Assembly (NCBI GenBank): GCA_013619145.1
Contig: JABXKR010000182.1
Location: forward strand, 1-42,353
Origin: Psychromonas sp.
GTDB taxonomy: Bacteria; Pseudomonadota; Gammaproteobacteria; Enterobacterales; Psychromonadaceae
Direction of reading: 5' to 3'
Length of the DNA stretch: 42,353 nt
Below the pieces are notes generated by a model. It made no database searches, had not been told where the DNA came from, and worked only from the letters and a program-made list of their open reading frames with translations. Of the stretch, positions 13,672 to 31,634 are shown in pieces. The position numbers and the translations under genes were made by a program. Each line of letters starts with the position of its first letter. Position 1 is the stretch's first letter.

Positions 13672-14856
13672 TTATTTAACAATACGTGCTGCAGCTGCAT
13701 CAAGTGCTTCAACAACAGTTTGACGACCTTGTACTGCATTGTTAATTGCAGCGCCTTCTGCATACCAGAACTTAGACATTTCTGGAATGTTAGGCATTAG
13801 TTCACCCGTTTGTGCATTCTGCATTGTTGCAGCAATACGAGGATCAGCGTCTAACTTAGCTTGGAAAGAGTTTAACGCAACAGCACCAAGTGGTTTGTCA
13901 TTGTTTACTAGCTCTAAACCAGCATCAGTTAACAGGTAGTTTTCAATGAACTCTTTTGCAAGTTCCTGGTTTGGACTTGAGATGTTAATACCGGCAGTTA
14001 ATACACCAACGAATGGTTTAGCTGATTTACCTTTAAATGTTGGTAGTACTGTAACACCGTAATTGATACCACTTTTATCGATATTGCCCCAAGACCAAGG
14101 ACCGTTAATAGTCATTGCTGTTTTACCAGTATTGAATGCAGACTCAGCAATTGAGTAATCAACATCAGCACTGATCTCTTTACGCTCAATCATATCAAGA
14201 AGGAACTGTAACGCACCTTTTGAACCTGCGTTATTTACACCAGTATCTTTAACATCGTAACTACCGTTGTTAAATTTAAACGCATAACCGCCATCAGCAG
14301 CGATTAGAGGCCATGTGAAGAACGGTTCTTTTAAGTTCCACATGATTGCAGATTTGCCGTCTTTTTTAAGTTTTTTATCAATTTCGCTAATTTCTTCCCA
14401 CGATTTTGGTGGGTTAGGCAGTAAATCTTTGTTGTAGATTAAAGAAAGAGCTTCAACAGCGATTGGGTAACCGATGTATTTACCATTGTAAGTAACAGCA
14501 TCCCAAGTGAAATCAGCCATTTTAGCTTTTAGTTCTGTACTTGGTTTAACTTCAGTTAATAAACCAGCTTTAGCCCAGCCGCCAAAACGGTCATGCGCCC
14601 AAAAAACAATATCAGGACCTGCGCCAGTTGCTGCAACTTGTCCGTATTTTTCTTCAAGTTTATCAGGATGAGCAACAGTCACTTTTACACCAGTATCTGC
14701 TTCAAACTTTTTGCCAACTTCGGCTAAACCGTCATAACCTTTATCACCATTAATCCAGATAGTGATTTGGCCTTCGTCCATTTTCGCATGAGCAATGTTT
14801 ACGCTGCCTAATGCAACTAGTACTGAAACAGCTAATGTACCTAATACTTTTTTCAT
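13672..14856 (-). CDS. malE: Periplasmic maltose/maltodextrin-binding protein MalE
   Basis: The product is 394 aa (E. coli 396) with a signal peptide cleaved near IAHA-K (about residue 24). The mature start [28 protein letters not shown] closely follows E. coli MalE. Ligand-binding aromatics and acids are visible in [47 protein letters not shown] and [13 protein letters not shown]. It binds maltose and maltodextrins and delivers them to MalFGK2. It is the first gene of malEFG. A MalT-type site and a TATATT -10 lie upstream. Confidence 0.97.
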
Positions 14857-15416
14857 AAATATTCCTTTAAAATAAATAGTAGTTTTTAGTTTTGTTTTAC
14901 TTCAACTTCTCAACTTCGTTTTTCAAGTGGTTTATTTATTAACCTTAAAAACGAGGCAAAATATAGTATGTGCTCCAAAAATCGTCACCCTCCTTTTTTC
15001 TACGCCCCCCTCAAGTATCCCTATTTCTTATTAAGAATGTTACCTGACGCACTAATTTACTGACAAAACCCCCTATATCCTGTTGCAAAGCCGCACTTTT
15101 TGTTGCATTTTGTACCCAATGACAGGGGCGGGTATTTATGCCAAATATATTAACAGGCGTAGCCTATTTATAAGTAACACCTATATTATTGCTCAATTAA
15201 AAGTTAAAATGCCCTGGCTCACCATGAATAACCTGTAAATTCATGCGGTTAAGTTTAAAGTCACTCATTTAATGCCGCACCTAGCAAGGGGGCGGAGGTG
15301 ATAAAATGCGGAGCAGTCAAAATTTCGCGGTTCTAGCAGGTAAGCGCAAAGTAAGAAACAAGTATCCAGCTGAAATAGCAAATGGTATTGGCTACTTCTT
15401 TTATTTAAGGTTTAGT
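14857..15416. promoter_or_regulatory. Divergent malE/malT control region
   Basis: This stretch separates the minus-strand malEFG start from the plus-strand malT start. It has several G-runs on the minus strand (complements of CCCTCC, CCCCCCTC and ACCCCCT) upstream of malE, where MalT would bind. I find no clean palindromic CRP site. At its plus-strand end a strong Shine-Dalgarno (GGAGGTGAT at 15294) precedes an alternative malT start at 15306. Confidence 0.55.
14960..14993 (-). promoter_or_regulatory. Candidate malE promoter with MalT-type box
   Basis: On the minus strand, GGAGGGTGAC (14984-14993) resembles the MalT box core GGAKGA. It lies 18 bp upstream of a TATATT hexamer (14960-14965), placing it near -36, where MalT boxes sit in MalT-dependent promoters that lack a normal -35. 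The match to consensus is partial; the call rests on position, context and the similar GGAGGRTG upstream of malK. Confidence 0.4.
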
Positions 15417-20607: not shown

Positions 20608-21705
20608 ATGAGTCTGCAATTTGTCGATCCAGATAATTACGAAAAACAGTTAAATGCTAAAAAAGAGCAATTTAACAAACAATTTGCGACATTTAACCTG
20701 CCTGCGCTAGAATGTTTTGATTCACCTAAGCAAAATTACCGTATGCGCTCAGAGTTTCGAGTATGGCATGACGGCGATGATCTTTATTACATTATGTTTG
20801 ATAAGGAAACTAAACAAAAAATTCGTGTTGATCAATTTCCGCCAGCAAGCTCACTGATTAATGCGTTAATGCCACAGCTAATAAATCTTTTAAAATCAGC
20901 CGATATTTTACGCCGAAAATTATTCCAAGTTGATTTTCTATCCAGCTTAAGCGGGCAAGTTATTGTTAGTTTACTTTACCATAAGCAGTTAGATGATAAC
21001 TGGTTAGCAGAGGCAAACCGTATTAAAGCGGAGTTATCGAAACAGTTTGATATCAATTTCATCGGTCGCGCTAAAAAGCAGAAAGTATTGCTAGATCAAG
21101 ATTATGTTGTTGAAGAATTAGATGTTGACGGCAACAAACTGTTTTATCAACAAATTGAAAATAGTTTTACCCAGCCTAATGCTATCGTCTCAGTAAAGAT
21201 GCTTGAATGGGCTATCGACTGTACGCGCAACAGCCAAGGAGACCTGCTGGAGCTTTACTGTGGTAACGGTAACTTCTCACTGGCATTAGCAAAAAACTTC
21301 AATAAAGTATTAGCCACTGAAATAGCCAAACCATCAGTGCACTCTGCACAGTTTAATATCGCTAAAAACAATATTGATAATGTCACAATTATCCGTATGT
21401 CAGCAGAAGAGTTTACCCAAGCTATTAATGGTGTACGTGAATTTAACCGTTTAGAAGGCATTAATTTAAGCGATTATCAGTGTAATACTATTTTTGTAGA
21501 TCCACCACGTTCGGGCCTTGATGATGAAACGGTGAAGATGGTACAAAATTACGACAATATTTTATATATCAGCTGTAATCCAGATACCTTACATAACAAT
21601 CTTGAACTGTTTAATGAAACACATTTCGTTAAACGTTTTGCTTTGTTTGATCAGTTCCCGTATACCCATCATACAGAAGCGGGTGTTTATTTAGTGAGAC
21701 GATAA
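20608..21705 (+). CDS. trmA: tRNA (uracil-5-)-methyltransferase TrmA
   Basis: The product is 365 aa (E. coli 366). It forms m5U54 in the T-loop of tRNA using S-adenosylmethionine. The N-terminal [21 protein letters not shown] is typical of TrmA and there is no TRAM domain, which separates it from RlmC/RlmD. The SAM site is [15 protein letters not shown] (about 213-227). The motif [10 protein letters not shown] and the nucleophilic Cys in ISCNPDTL (about 322-329) are present, and the Glu general base is in [12 protein letters not shown] at the C-terminus. The last 39 nt of this gene are repeated five more times in the array immediately downstream. Confidence 0.96.
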
Positions 21706-22305
21706 AGTGATAGAAAACGTTTACAAACGTTTTGCACTACACCTTAACGAAAGTTGATCAGTTCCCGCGGCACCTTCAAACAGGCACATCATACTGAAGC
21801 TGGTGTTTATTTAGTGAGACGATAAAGGGCAGGAAAACGTTTATAAACGTTTTGCACTATACCTTAACGTAAGTTGATCAGCTCCCGCTGCACCTTAAAA
21901 CAGGCACATCATACTGAAGCGGGTGTTTATTTAGTGAGACGATAAAGTGATAGAAAACGTTTACAAACGTTTTGCACTACACCTTAACGAAAGTTGATCA
22001 GTTCCCGCGGTACCTTCAAACAGGCACATCATACTGAAGCTGGTGTTTATTTAGTGAGACGATAACGTGATAGAAAATGTTTACAAACGTTTTGCACTAC
22101 ACCTTAACGTAAGTTGATCAGTTTCCGCTGCACCTTAAAACAGGCACATCATACTGAAGCTGGTGTTTATTTAGTGAGACGATAACGTGATAGAAAATGT
22201 TTACAAACGTTTTGCACGACACCTTAACGAAAGTTGATCAGTTTCCGCTGCACCTTCAAACAGGCACATCATACTGAAGCGGGTGTTTATTTAGTAAGAC
22301 GATAG
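21667..22305 (+). repeat. 120-bp tandem array built on the 3' end of trmA, six copies
   Basis: A block of 39 nt that encodes [12 protein letters not shown]-stop begins at 21667 (inside trmA), 21787, 21907, 22027, 22147 and 22267, an exact 120-bp period. Between copies lie a palindrome AAAACGTTTACAAACGTTTT (first at 21714) and a copy of trmA sequence GTTGATCAGTTCCCG. Copies 1 and 3 are nearly identical in their spacer while copy 2 differs, which suggests duplication of a 240-bp double unit. Only the first copy is part of a gene. The rest has stop codons after each block and is not coding. Confidence 0.93.
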
Positions 22306-26389: not shown

Positions 26390-27661
26390 TATTCATTTTC
26401 ACCTTGTTGTGAATCTTCCTCTCTCGAGAAAAGTGCTTCAATAAACTCCTTGGCATTAAATTCTCGCAAATCATCAATGCCTTCACCTGTTCCTATATAA
26501 CGAATTGGTAATTTAAATTTATCAGCAATCGAGAAAATAATTCCACCTTTTGCTGTCCCATCCAATTTAGTTAGTGTAATCCCAGTTATACCAACTGCTT
26601 GATCAAATAACTGTACTTGGCTAATGGCATTTTGCCCAGTACCGGCATCAAGAGTAAGCATGATTTCGTGTGGTGCACTGGCATCTTTTTTGCGCATAAT
26701 ACGCACCACTTTGCTTAACTCATCCATTAAATGATCTTTGTTCTGCAGGCGTCCGGCAGTATCTGCAATCAAAATATCAACGCCACGCGCTTTAGCTGCA
26801 TCCATTGCATCAAATAAAACAGATGCACTGTCAGCACCTGTCTGCTGTGCAATAACAGGGATATCATTACGCTCCCCCCATACTTGTAACTGCTCGACAG
26901 CAGCTGCGCGGAAAGTATCTCCTGCAGCTAACATCACAGACTTACCTTGCTGTTGGTACTTTTTGGCTAATTTACCTATGGTGGTTGTTTTACCAACACC
27001 GTTAACACCAACCATTAAAATAACGTATGGAGATTTGCTTTCATCAATAGATAAAGGTTGCTCCACTTTATTCAAAATTTCCGAAAGATCGGTTTTCAAT
27101 AAACTATATAAAGCTTCTGCATCTTTAAGCTGTTTACGATCTGCATGTTCAGTTAGGTTATCAATTATTTTTAAGGTTGTATCAACACCAATATCAGCAA
27201 CAATTAATTGCTCTTCTAACTCTTCAAAAAGATCATCATCAATTTGTTTCCCTTTAAATAAAGAGAATAAACCACTACCAATACTTAAACGAGTTTTAGT
27301 TAGGCTTTGTTTGAAGCGAGCAAAGAAACCTAATGTTTTTTCTTCTTTTTTAGCTCGTAACTTCTCAGATTGTAACTTCTCAGCTTGTAGCTTTTCAGTA
27401 GCCAACTCTTCAGCGGCAAGCTCTTCAGCGGCAAGCTCTTCAGCGGCAAGCTCTTCAGCAGCAAGCTTTTCAGCAGCAAGCTTTTCAGCAGCAAGCTTTT
27501 CAGCGGCTAGCTTTTCAGCGGCTAGCTTTTCAGCGGCTAGCTTTTCAGCCAGCAGCTAAATTTTCAGCAGCTAGCTTTTCAGCTTCGACATTTTCATCTT
27601 GCGCAGTTTCTTGTTTTGATTTTTTCCCAAACCAGGAAAATAGACCTTTCTTCTTTGCCAT
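26389..27661 (-). CDS. ftsY: Signal recognition particle receptor FtsY, reading frame broken by a 4-bp duplication
   Basis: FtsY is the membrane receptor GTPase for SRP. The N and G domains are complete in the frame 26389-27405, with GVNGVGKTTTIGKLA (G1), DTFRAAAVEQL, ADTAGR and TKLDGTAKGG. The natural start is the ATG at 27661: it has AAGG upstream and encodes MAKKKGLFSWFGKKSK, the classic FtsY membrane-targeting N-terminus. That frame stops at TGA 27547-27545 after 38 residues because one 15-bp repeat unit carries an extra CAGC (within 27546-27564). The downstream frame opens only after a TAG at 27558-27556 and has no ATG before the G domain; a TTG at 27405 is the only start-like codon. Without the 4 bp the protein would be 422 aa. 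Since ftsY is essential, this may be a sequencing or assembly error, slippage, or a real internal start. Confidence 0.88.
27385..27584 (-). repeat. 15-bp tandem repeats encoding the AAEKL/AAEEL linker of FtsY
   Basis: About 13 units of 15 bp (plus-strand form CAGCGGCTAGCTTTT) encode the pentad AAEKL or AAEEL and end with diverged QAEKL, QSEKL units. The product is a charged alanine-rich helix in the A-domain linker of FtsY. One unit near the 5' end is 19 bp, with a duplicated CAGC, and shifts the reading frame. The opposite strand shows a spurious Ser/Ala-rich ORF. Confidence 0.9.
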
Positions 27662-28770: not shown

Positions 28771-29007
28771 TTAACAAAGATGATCTTCAGGCATATGAAT
28801 CCCCTCTTCCGATTCAACAAACTTACCTTTTGAAGTAAGAAACTCGATCAAAGCATCCGCCGTCAAATCACTATGCATACAAGTATGAAAATGCGCATCT
28901 TCACCAAATTTAGTGGCTATCTCTGCTTTTAAGGCTGACTTGCTGTAAGTTTTTGCACTCGCGGCCATCATTTCCATTACTTGATGACCATGGATTGATT
29001 CACTCAT
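28771..29007 (-). CDS. yecH: YecH-family putative metal-binding protein
   Basis: The product is 78 aa. It starts with SIHGHQVMEMMAAS and carries the family's conserved His/Cys ligands: HGH at 6-8, HFHTCMHS (about 38-45) and the C-terminal HMPEDHLC. This is the YecH/DUF2492 family of small cytoplasmic proteins presumed to bind a transition metal; the role is unknown. It is monocistronic. It lies immediately downstream of the terminator of the GGA-rich RNA locus on the same strand. Confidence 0.85.
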   Translation of the reverse strand: MSESIHGHQVMEMMAASAKTYSKSALKAEIATKFGEDAHFHTCMHSDLTADALIEFLTSKGKFVESEEGIHMPEDHLC

Positions 29008-29096
29008 TTTTGTTCCTAGTTAATTTATCAAAAAAACACTATAACCCAGCAAAGCAGTCGGGTATTGATGTAAAACAAAATTTTCGAGCATAAATG

Positions 29097-29133
29097 AAAA
29101 AGGGTGAACACAATTAATGCGTTCACCCTTTTA
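29097..29133 (-). terminator. Terminator of the GGA-rich RNA
   Basis: AGGGTGAAC/GTTCACCCT, 9 bp (29101-29109 and 29121-29129) extended by A/T pairs, ends on the minus strand in TTTTTCATTT. It lies about 90 bp upstream of the yecH start and separates the RNA from that gene. Confidence 0.88.
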
Positions 29134-29310
29134 TAGTCTTAATATTCATTCCGTTGAGAATTTCCACACCCTTGTGGTTCCGTGACAATAGCTAATCTAA
29201 GCTTTTTCCTTTTTCTAATCCTTTAGCTTGTCCCTTTCTCCGTATTATCAAATACTATTGAAACCGCTTCTATCCTGAAGGTATCCTTTAACGCTCCGCG
29301 CATTTCCTTT

Positions 29311-29745
29311 CCAATCCTTTTGGAATTCCTTAAATCCATTTTAACAATCGAATCTATTGTTATACCTTTCTTCCTAAAGGCTTCCTAATAACAGCTCCTA
29401 GCTTCTATCCCTTTTCCAATCCTTTTGGAATTCCTTAAATCCATTTTAACAATCGAATCTATTGTTATACCTTTACTTCCTAAAGGCTTCCTAATAACAG
29501 CTCCTAGCTTCTATCCCTTTCCCAATCCTTTTGGAATTCCTTAAATCCATTTTAACAATCGAATCTATTGTTATACCTTTCTTCCTAAAGGCTTCCTTAT
29601 AACAGCTCCTAGCTTCTATCCCTTTCCCAATCCTTTTGGGATTCCTTAAATCCATTTTAACAATCGAATCTATTGTTATACCTTTCTTCCTAAAGGTTTC
29701 CTAATAACAGCTCCTAGCTTATATCCCTTTCCCAATCCTTTTGGA
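29311..29745 (-). repeat. 105-bp tandem repeats inside the GGA-rich RNA
   Basis: The landmark CCAATCCTTTTGG starts at 29311, 29416, 29522, 29627 and 29732, so the period is 105 bp with one 106-bp unit (one extra A in CCTTTACTTCC). There are four complete units and a fifth partial copy. Each unit holds the hairpins CCAA-AAGGA-TTGG, CCTTT-AGGAAG-AAAGG and AGC-TAGGA-GCT plus a non-GGA stem AACAAT/ATTGTT. In the unit at 29627 the stem is lengthened by a C-G pair (CCCAA/TTGGG) where copies 1 and 2 have a T-A pair. Confidence 0.95.
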
Positions 29746-29880
29746 ATTCCTAACTCCCTGTCGCAATTTATGCTATTGCAGCCCTCTTCCTGAAGGTGTC
29801 CTTTTATTCCACTTGCTTTATCTAAAGCTCCTTAACTCGTTGTTTTCCGTAACAACGCTGCATTCCTTAACTTGTGAACA

Positions 29881-29886
29881 AGTATA
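29881..29886 (-). promoter_or_regulatory. Candidate -10 element of the GGA-rich RNA
   Basis: TATACT on the minus strand lies about 23 bp before the first GGA hairpin stem. No good -35 is seen at 16-18 bp, which would fit activator dependence. A half-site like TGTAAAG at 29938-29944 (plus strand) only loosely recalls the GacA/UvrY box TGTAAG-N6-CTTACA. Confidence 0.4.
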
Positions 29887-30102
29887 AATCCAGATTGAAA
29901 ATTTAAGCCTTATTTCTTTTACTTTTAATTTTATGAATGTAAAGATAACACCCCAACACCAAAACAAACCATACAAATCAACAAATTAGAACTCGAGCAT
30001 GTTTTATTACCAGTTATCACCAACAGATAAAACGCAGATTACTCACATAAGAATAGCCGATCTCTTACAGATGAGCCTATTCACCACTATTTCATACAGA
30101 TA
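29887..30102. other. Spacer between the GGA-rich RNA and the nagE 3' end
   Basis: AT-rich sequence that should hold the upstream control region of the RNA. A short plus-strand frame at 29999-30184 has no ribosome binding site and runs through the nagE terminator, so I do not call it. Confidence 0.5.
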
Positions 30103-30176: not shown

Positions 30177-31634
30177 TTACTTAACAGTTTTCATACGGTT
30201 CGCAATACTTTCTGCTTGAGGGCCGATGATAACTTGTAAGTTATTTTCGCCTAGCTTAACAACGCCCATTGCCCCTAAACCTTTAAGTTCAGCTTCATTG
30301 ACGACACTACGATCTTTAAGTGTTAAACGTAAACGGGTGATACAAGCATCAATAACCTCTAGGTTATCGATTCCGCCAAGGGCTGTAACATACTGAGTTG
30401 CTAATTCACCAGCATCTTCAGCAGCATTTACTTTTGGAGCATCAACATCTGCTTCTTCACGACCAGGCGTTTTAAGATCCATACCTCGAATAACAGCAAG
30501 GAAGATAAAGTAATAGATTGCGAAGAATACGACACCTTGAACGATAAGCATGTACCATTTAACAGCAAGAGGATTTTGCGAAGACAAGACCATATCCACA
30601 AGACCTGCTGAGAAACCGAAACCAGCCATCCACTCCATTGATGCAGCAAAGAATACTGATACACCCGCTAGTAATGCATGGATTACATAAAGCAGTGGCG
30701 CTGCAAACATGAATGAGAATTCAAGAGGCTCTGTTACACCGGTGAAGAAAGAAGATAGAGAAGCCGCTAGCATTATAGAAGCAACTTTTTCTTTATTTTC
30801 AGGTTTAGCTGCAGTGTAGATAGCAAATGCAGCACCGGGAAGGCCAAACATCATGATAGGGAAGAAACCCGCTTGATACATACCCGTTTTACCTATGATT
30901 GCAGTACCAGCATCAATACCAGACTGGCCACTTAGGAAGTTAGGGATATCGTTAATACCAGCAACGTCAAACCAGAATACTGAGTTTAATGCATGGTGAA
31001 GACCAACAGGGATTAATAAACGGTTAAAGAATGCGTAGAGACCCGCACCAACATCACCAAGACCAGCAATTGTTTCACCAAACGTTTGTAAACTAGAGAA
31101 GATCATTGGCCAGATAGCCATCAGTACGAATGCAAGACCAATCATTACAACTGAGACTACAATCGGTACTAAACGACGTCCTGAGAAGAACGCTAATGCG
31201 CTATGTAGTTCAACACCTGAAAAACGATTGTAAAGCTCAGCAGAGATAATACCCACTAAGATACCTACAAATTGGTTATTGATCTTATTAAATGCGAATG
31301 GCACTTCTGAAAGCGGGATGCTTTGAATTTGCGCAACCGCAGCAGGGGAAAGTAGCGTAGTCACAACCAAGAACCCGACTAAACCAGAAAGCGCAGCCGC
31401 GCCATCTTTATCTTTAGACATACCGTAAGCAACACCAACTGCAAATAACACTGACATATTGTCAATAACAGCCGCTCCCGCTTTGATTAAAAATGCAGCT
31501 AAAGCGGAATCACCACCCCAGCCGGCTGGATCGATCCAGTAACCTATACCCATTAAAATTGCAGCTGCTGGAAGCACTGCGACTGGAACCATTAAGGCTC
31601 TACCTACTTTTTGAAAATACCCAAGAATGTTCAC
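30177..31634 (-). CDS. nagE: N-acetylglucosamine-specific PTS enzyme IICB NagE, without a IIA domain
   Basis: The product is 485 aa. It imports and phosphorylates GlcNAc. It starts at GTG 31634 with AGGAGAG just upstream. The IIC part (about 1-370) has about ten membrane segments, with the family start MNILGYFQKVGRALMVPVAVLPAAAILMGIGYWIDP and the substrate loop VGLHHALNSVFWFDVAG. The IIB domain (about 400-485) carries the phospho-accepting Cys431 in DACITRLRLTLKD. E. coli NagE is 648 aa because of a fused IIA; here the protein stops after IIB, so phosphate must come from a separate IIA, such as Crr. It is divergent from nagB. Confidence 0.93.
   Translation of the reverse strand: MNILGYFQKVGRALMVPVAVLPAAAILMGIGYWIDPAGWGGDSALAAFLIKAGAAVIDNMSVLFAVGVAYGMSKDKDGAAALSGLVGFLVVTTLLSPAAVAQIQSIPLSEVPFAFNKINNQFVGILVGIISAELYNRFSGVELHSALAFFSGRRLVPIVVSVVMIGLAFVLMAIWPMIFSSLQTFGETIAGLGDVGAGLYAFFNRLLIPVGLHHALNSVFWFDVAGINDIPNFLSGQSGIDAGTAIIGKTGMYQAGFFPIMMFGLPGAAFAIYTAAKPENKEKVASIMLAASLSSFFTGVTEPLEFSFMFAAPLLYVIHALLAGVSVFFAASMEWMAGFGFSAGLVDMVLSSQNPLAVKWYMLIVQGVVFFAIYYFIFLAVIRGMDLKTPGREEADVDAPKVNAAEDAGELATQYVTALGGIDNLEVIDACITRLRLTLKDRSVVNEAELKGLGAMGVVKLGENNLQVIIGPQAESIANRMKTVK

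Follow-up and report, generated by a model that had tools for sequence, protein, structure and literature searches.

The window analysed here, the whole 42,353-nt stretch of a Psychromonas sp. contig, carries on its minus strand, at 29095..29873, what is very probably the gene of a Csr-type sRNA of approximately 779 nt with 53 GGA motifs, the 5' end being placed from a -10 element and the 3' end from a terminator. Downstream lies a YecH family gene (28771..29007, minus), which also follows the RNA in six of the eight relatives read, and upstream an N-acetylglucosamine PTS IIBC gene (30177..31634, minus) followed by a terminator-like site (30129-30108). The link between yecH and the RNA is not universal: a homologue search returned 13 yecH loci, ten in Psychromonas and three in Shewanella, and the RNA is found at five of them (L021, L022, L023, L025 and L033), while it is missing at the other eight (L024 and L026-L032), where there are at most 11 GGA per 300 nt versus 18-21; L024, L028 and L031 were also read by eye and the RNA is not present. 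As for the upstream side, another small gene (by eye), and not the N-acetylglucosamine PTS gene, is found in L022, L023, L025 and L033; the PTS gene is possibly an incidental neighbour.

The most evident property of the locus is its motif content. On the minus strand between 29095 and 29875, 53 GGA are found within 781 nt, as counted in the sequence-only reading, whose chance expectation of near 12 was too low: approximately 21 are expected by base composition, and dinucleotide shuffles give 27.7±3.4 with a maximum of 38 (500 shuffles), a difference which rules out chance or composition as the source of the excess. The remaining 781-nt stretches of the window hold 5.9 GGA on average and 16 at most. 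The earlier statement that the region has no ORF also holds, in that no frame of more than 54 aa overlaps the RNA (ORFs of at least 40 aa being listed).

The signals delimiting the RNA have been located at both ends. The TATACT -10 element announced upstream of it is read from the sequence at 29881..29886 (minus, 29886-29881), and TATACTT precedes the same start in eight of nine aligned loci, the exception being P. marina, whose RNA was delimited by the conserved start since the -10 pattern failed there. A promoter scanner reported no match on the minus strand at the -10 region, so the -35 element would be weak or absent. The strong terminator proposed to close the RNA was recovered by pattern scan as a Rho-independent terminator of 15 pairs (29098..29132, minus; 29132-29098). 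By alignment, the 5' part (29751..29873, minus), which is not included in the repeat array, starts with AAGTTAAGG, as in the relatives.

Further upstream, a predicted UvrY/GacA-type box, TGTAAGAGATCGGCTATT, occupies 30052..30069 (minus), centred some 187 nt before the inferred start. The box begins 182-183 nt before the -10 element, and likewise in Urea-02u-13, P. hadalis, G007 and G001; its second half differs from the palindromic CTTACA. The strict box pattern gave nothing in P. aquimarina or G011, and in P. ossibalaenae it matched another site; CTAAGAGAT-type boxes are recovered there by the pattern used across the genus. This pattern, T[AG]AGA[GT]AT, is present within the 330 nt preceding 31 of 43 Psychromonas Csr runs, versus 1/43 in the reversed sequence and 4/43 on the other strand; a 44th run was excluded, its upstream sequence being too short, and the runs are mutually related and some are neighbours. 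In E. coli, the footprinted csrB site TGTGAGAGATCTCTTACA is centred at -183/-182, and the Salmonella csrC site is TGTGAGACATTGACCATT (PMC4682653).

The middle of the RNA consists of a tandem array, missed in the sequence-only reading, with a period of 105 nt, 4.2 copies and 97% matches (29306-29751). Repeat scan and copy alignment resolve four full copies on the minus strand, each with 8 GGA: copy 1 (29646..29750, 105 nt), copy 2 (29541..29645, 105 nt), copy 3 (29435..29540, 106 nt) and copy 4 (29330..29434, 105 nt), while a partial fifth copy (29306..29329, minus) was found by repeat scan. The four full copies carry 32 of the 53 GGA, and the RNA is unusually long because this GGA cassette is tandemly repeated four times, although the copy number may have been miscounted by the assembly, even if the copies differ among themselves. 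Since 105 nt correspond to 35 codons, the array could in principle encode a protein with a 35-residue repeat, and a 54-aa ORF does lie inside it (29491-29655); the 106-nt copy 3, however, breaks the frame, no longer ORF overlaps the RNA and the 54-aa frame has no Pfam match, so that a repeat protein was rejected as extremely improbable.

The position of the module in the relatives suggests how the array arose. One good copy is found in P. marina, P. hadalis, Urea-02u-13 and G007, with 79-84% ungapped identity and scores of 87-107 (shuffle maxima 41-50, 50 shuffles), and it starts at RNA position 109-120, the window's first copy starting at 123. In the same four relatives a second, weaker likeness comes next, with scores of 42-62, which equal or barely exceed the shuffle maxima. 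Module matches are also found in P. aquimarina (one, 79), P. ossibalaenae (several, 53-62) and the genome's own csrB (one, 58). From these matches we infer an older arrangement, with one good and one partial unit, which would have been amplified in the window's lineage.

Whether this amplification has consequences is a different question. The fourfold module may be a neutral tandem duplication with little functional effect, a refinement compatible with a Csr-type sRNA and to which we give even odds. The single good copy in four relatives fits it, as do the abundance of tandem units of at least 40 nt in the genus (5 places in 252 kb plus 4 in 260 kb) and the second long array of the window, of 120 nt x 5.3, after trmA. 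On the other hand, internal tandem units recur in 9 of the 44 listed Csr runs of the genus, the window's included, all 8 GGA and the hairpins are kept in every full copy (a weak test, given 97% likeness), and outside the window the source genome is not clearly enriched in arrays. In this genome tandem units of at least 40 nt, counted after overlapping rows had been merged by eye, occupy 7 places in 294 kb, two of them inside the window; the 5 remaining in 252 kb outside it compare with 4 in the 260 kb taken from two relatives. Arrays of this kind are thus not uncommon, but there is no clear tandem-repeat habit of the source genome, and such a habit was rejected as a full explanation.

Two other arrays were observed in the window. 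At 21667-22304, the 120-nt unit in 5.3 copies begins inside trmA (20608-21705), at its 3' end, and extends beyond it, each unit repeating the trmA 3' end including the stop and a AAACGTTTACAAACGTTTT hairpin; the ftsY reading frame has at its 5' end a 15-nt unit repeated 12.7 times (27389-27583).

With regard to structure, mostly paired GGA motifs had been named beforehand as evidence against the proposal, and this was not what folding gave: with a pairing limit of 60 nt, GG is unpaired at 0.71 versus 0.59±0.05 in 30 shuffles (other G, 0.42), and 15 of the 53 GGA (28%) fall in hairpin loops versus 11% in shuffles. The same test gives 0.81 and 9/22 looped GGA for E. coli CsrB, and 0.79 and 15/30 for the genome's own csrB, so loop placement is weaker in the window RNA than in E. 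coli CsrB (0.71 vs 0.81). All four hairpins quoted in the sequence-only reading (CCAA-AAGGA-TTGG, CCTTT-AGGAAG-AAAGG, CTAA-AGGA-TTAG and CTTC-AGGATA-GAAG) exist in the sequence, but the third is absent from the minimum-energy fold of the whole RNA.

Covariation has been detected in two parts of the molecule. The conserved 3' domain (29097..29264, minus; RNAalifold and model R1) has covarying helices: in nine sequences, RNAalifold gives 33 pairs, of which 11 are changed on both sides and 9 are disrupted in one or two sequences. For the module, an alignment of the four window copies with those of four relatives gives four named hairpins, three with GGA loops and one without, and compensatory changes are seen in two of the three helices around GGA. 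All 140 of 140 cells pair, versus 20-49% when the structure is slid along the alignment, a comparison which favours the structure because it was drawn from the same sequences. Five of the 18 pairs are changed on both sides (16 cells), and the covariation score of 0.308 was reached by none of 500 shuffles; two further module measures were no better than shuffles, the number of both-side-changed pairs being reached in 112/500 and that of pair types in 459/500.

A DNA search for the RNA in 60 genomes, the own one included, gave matches in 11: nine belong to the genus, the source genome among them, and the other two, from outside it, are weak (E 7.8e-4 and 7.9e-4). Model R1, for which nine 3'-domain sequences were used, exceeds 130 bits in 10 of 24 genus genomes (the own one and nine others); a tally of 12/24 counts two further genomes with weak matches, and five more weak second places are listed at 34-42 bits. 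Only G002 is an independent find of this model, because nine of the ten genomes are training sequences, and there a GGA run alone is given (147 nt, 11 GGA). Compared with the 779 nt and 53 GGA of the window RNA, the eight measured relatives range over 183-548 nt and 10-31 GGA: Urea-02u-13 (548 nt, 30 GGA), P. marina (544, 28), P. hadalis (541, 31), G007 (531, 29), P. ossibalaenae (465, 27), P. aquimarina (415, 23), G001 (388, 22) and G011 (183, 10). No literature on Psychromonas Csr RNA was found among open-licence papers.

The covariance models proposed in the sequence-only reading for recognising CsrB or CsrC did not reach their curated cut-offs: RF00084 (CsrC) scores 27.8 bits (E 3.9e-6 in a 1351-base search; gathering cut-off 61) and RF00018 (CsrB) 21.2 and 17.2 bits (cut-off 71). 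The Rfam search of the window gave no family at its gathering score, and none of nine other loci of the RNA family reached the Rfam cut-offs. Other weak Rfam matches (sxy, L20 leader, CRISPR repeats and others) were discarded, being below cut-off and many of them on the terminator hairpin.

In size, the window's GGA run is the longest among the 44 distinct runs listed in the genus, with 742 nt and 54 GGA, one of which lies upstream of the -10 element, the run inside the RNA comprising 717 nt and 53 GGA. The next longest listed are 634 nt with 44 GGA, 583 with 40 and 566 with 41 (L034, L044 and L048), Psychromonas CsrB RNAs which are likewise GGA-rich with internal tandem units (133, 159 and 153 nt, respectively) but occupy other loci and have shorter runs. 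Internal units of at least 40 nt are present in 9 of the 44 listed. At L044, the csrB RNA (2323-2780) has its 159-nt unit in 2.9 copies, another internal module repetition, and in several Psychromonas genomes (L035, L039, L040, L041 and L042) two or three csrB-like genes lie in a row, approximately 0.7-0.85 kb apart. An order-wide search with stricter filters gave a CsrB match in 108 of 197 genomes, the source genome being missed by those filters; the longest of the 41 runs in L063-L094 has 613 nt and 43 GGA, in a set formed by the best-scoring order-wide loci plus E. coli, with runs not made unique, which is not a random sample.

Among known systems, the length of the Csr RNA family has been given as 100 to >400 nt (PMC6262261). 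The window RNA resembles E. coli CsrB and CsrC (RF00018, RF00084) in being a GGA-rich noncoding RNA with looped GGA, a Rho-independent terminator and a UvrY-type box some 180 nt before the start; it differs from CsrB in having 53 versus 22 GGA and about 780 versus 369 nt, in keeping with the earlier estimate of near twice its length, and from both in its tandem modules and its scores below both Rfam cut-offs. CsrB1 and CsrB2 of Shewanella oneidensis, BarA/UvrY dependent, are also gammaproteobacterial Csr RNAs with a GacA/UvrY box, but are two separate genes of predicted 420 and 421 bp (PMC3171408). Pseudoalteromonas fuliginea shares the presence of several GGA-rich Csr RNAs in a cold-marine genome, but its Pf1-Pf3 have 25, 21 and 9 GGA, and the available portion of that report mentions no amplified module (PMC11882849). 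Vibrio tasmaniensis CsrB1-4 also represent a Csr RNA set grown by duplication, with the difference that whole genes were duplicated (PMC6262261), whereas the repetition in the window RNA concerns a unit within a single gene.

The source genome (3.95 Mb, 336 contigs, 85.6% complete) also contains csrA, whose absence would have spoken against the proposal; it is present on contig C2 (8.6e-25). Near csrA, a GGA-dense stretch (L001) was rejected as a Csr RNA, since inspection by eye shows a simple repeat of the GGAATTT type next to tRNA-like sequence. A second Csr RNA was observed in the same genome (L002; G000:C268, Rfam matches at 14743-15177), of about 468 nt with 30 GGA, 64.8 bits to RF00018 (cut-off 71) and its own TGTAAGAGATCGACCATT box. 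The uvrY gene was not found in this 85.6%-complete assembly (best match, 31% identity), as would be expected if this lineage had lost UvrY and its Csr RNA gene were in decay. Nevertheless, the assembly is incomplete and divided into 336 contigs, all 23 other genus genomes have uvrY (66-72% identity), and in the window the box, the -10 element, the 5' and 3' domains and the terminator look intact, all of which makes decay highly improbable.

The architecture of a CsrA-titrating RNA, as first proposed, is supported by the homologues, the compensatory changes in the helices, the UvrY-type box at the canonical distance and the csrA gene, observed directly together with the motif excess and the tandem origin of the extra length. 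The locus is read as a Csr-type CsrA-titrating sRNA with a probability of about 0.92, transcription, CsrA binding and UvrY control of the RNA being predicted from the sequence features. It is concluded that the window RNA belongs to a Psychromonas subfamily lying below the Rfam cut-offs, and that it has been enlarged by module repetition. In the mechanism envisaged, phosphorylated UvrY would bind the far-upstream box and turn transcription on, the RNA of about 780 nt would present dozens of GGA in hairpin loops and single-stranded linkers, and many CsrA dimers would be held per RNA, relieving CsrA control of mRNAs. With 53 GGA, where E. coli CsrB has 22, the CsrA-binding capacity per molecule would probably be greater.

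More tentatively, and as a view that we consider possible rather than likely, the Psychromonas Csr RNAs might be evolvable modular sponges, with cassettes that expand and contract by recombination and a copy number that sets the amount of CsrA removed per transcript; the window locus would then be an extreme state of a natural rheostat for a global regulator. As it stands, the locus provides a Csr-type RNA missed by the Rfam cut-offs, with the longest such run among those compared, and illustrates the repetition of an internal module as one way of enlarging a CsrA sponge, the duplication of whole genes being the way already known. Moreover, the natural relatives with one good module, set against the four of the window RNA, make the scaling of titration with site number testable.
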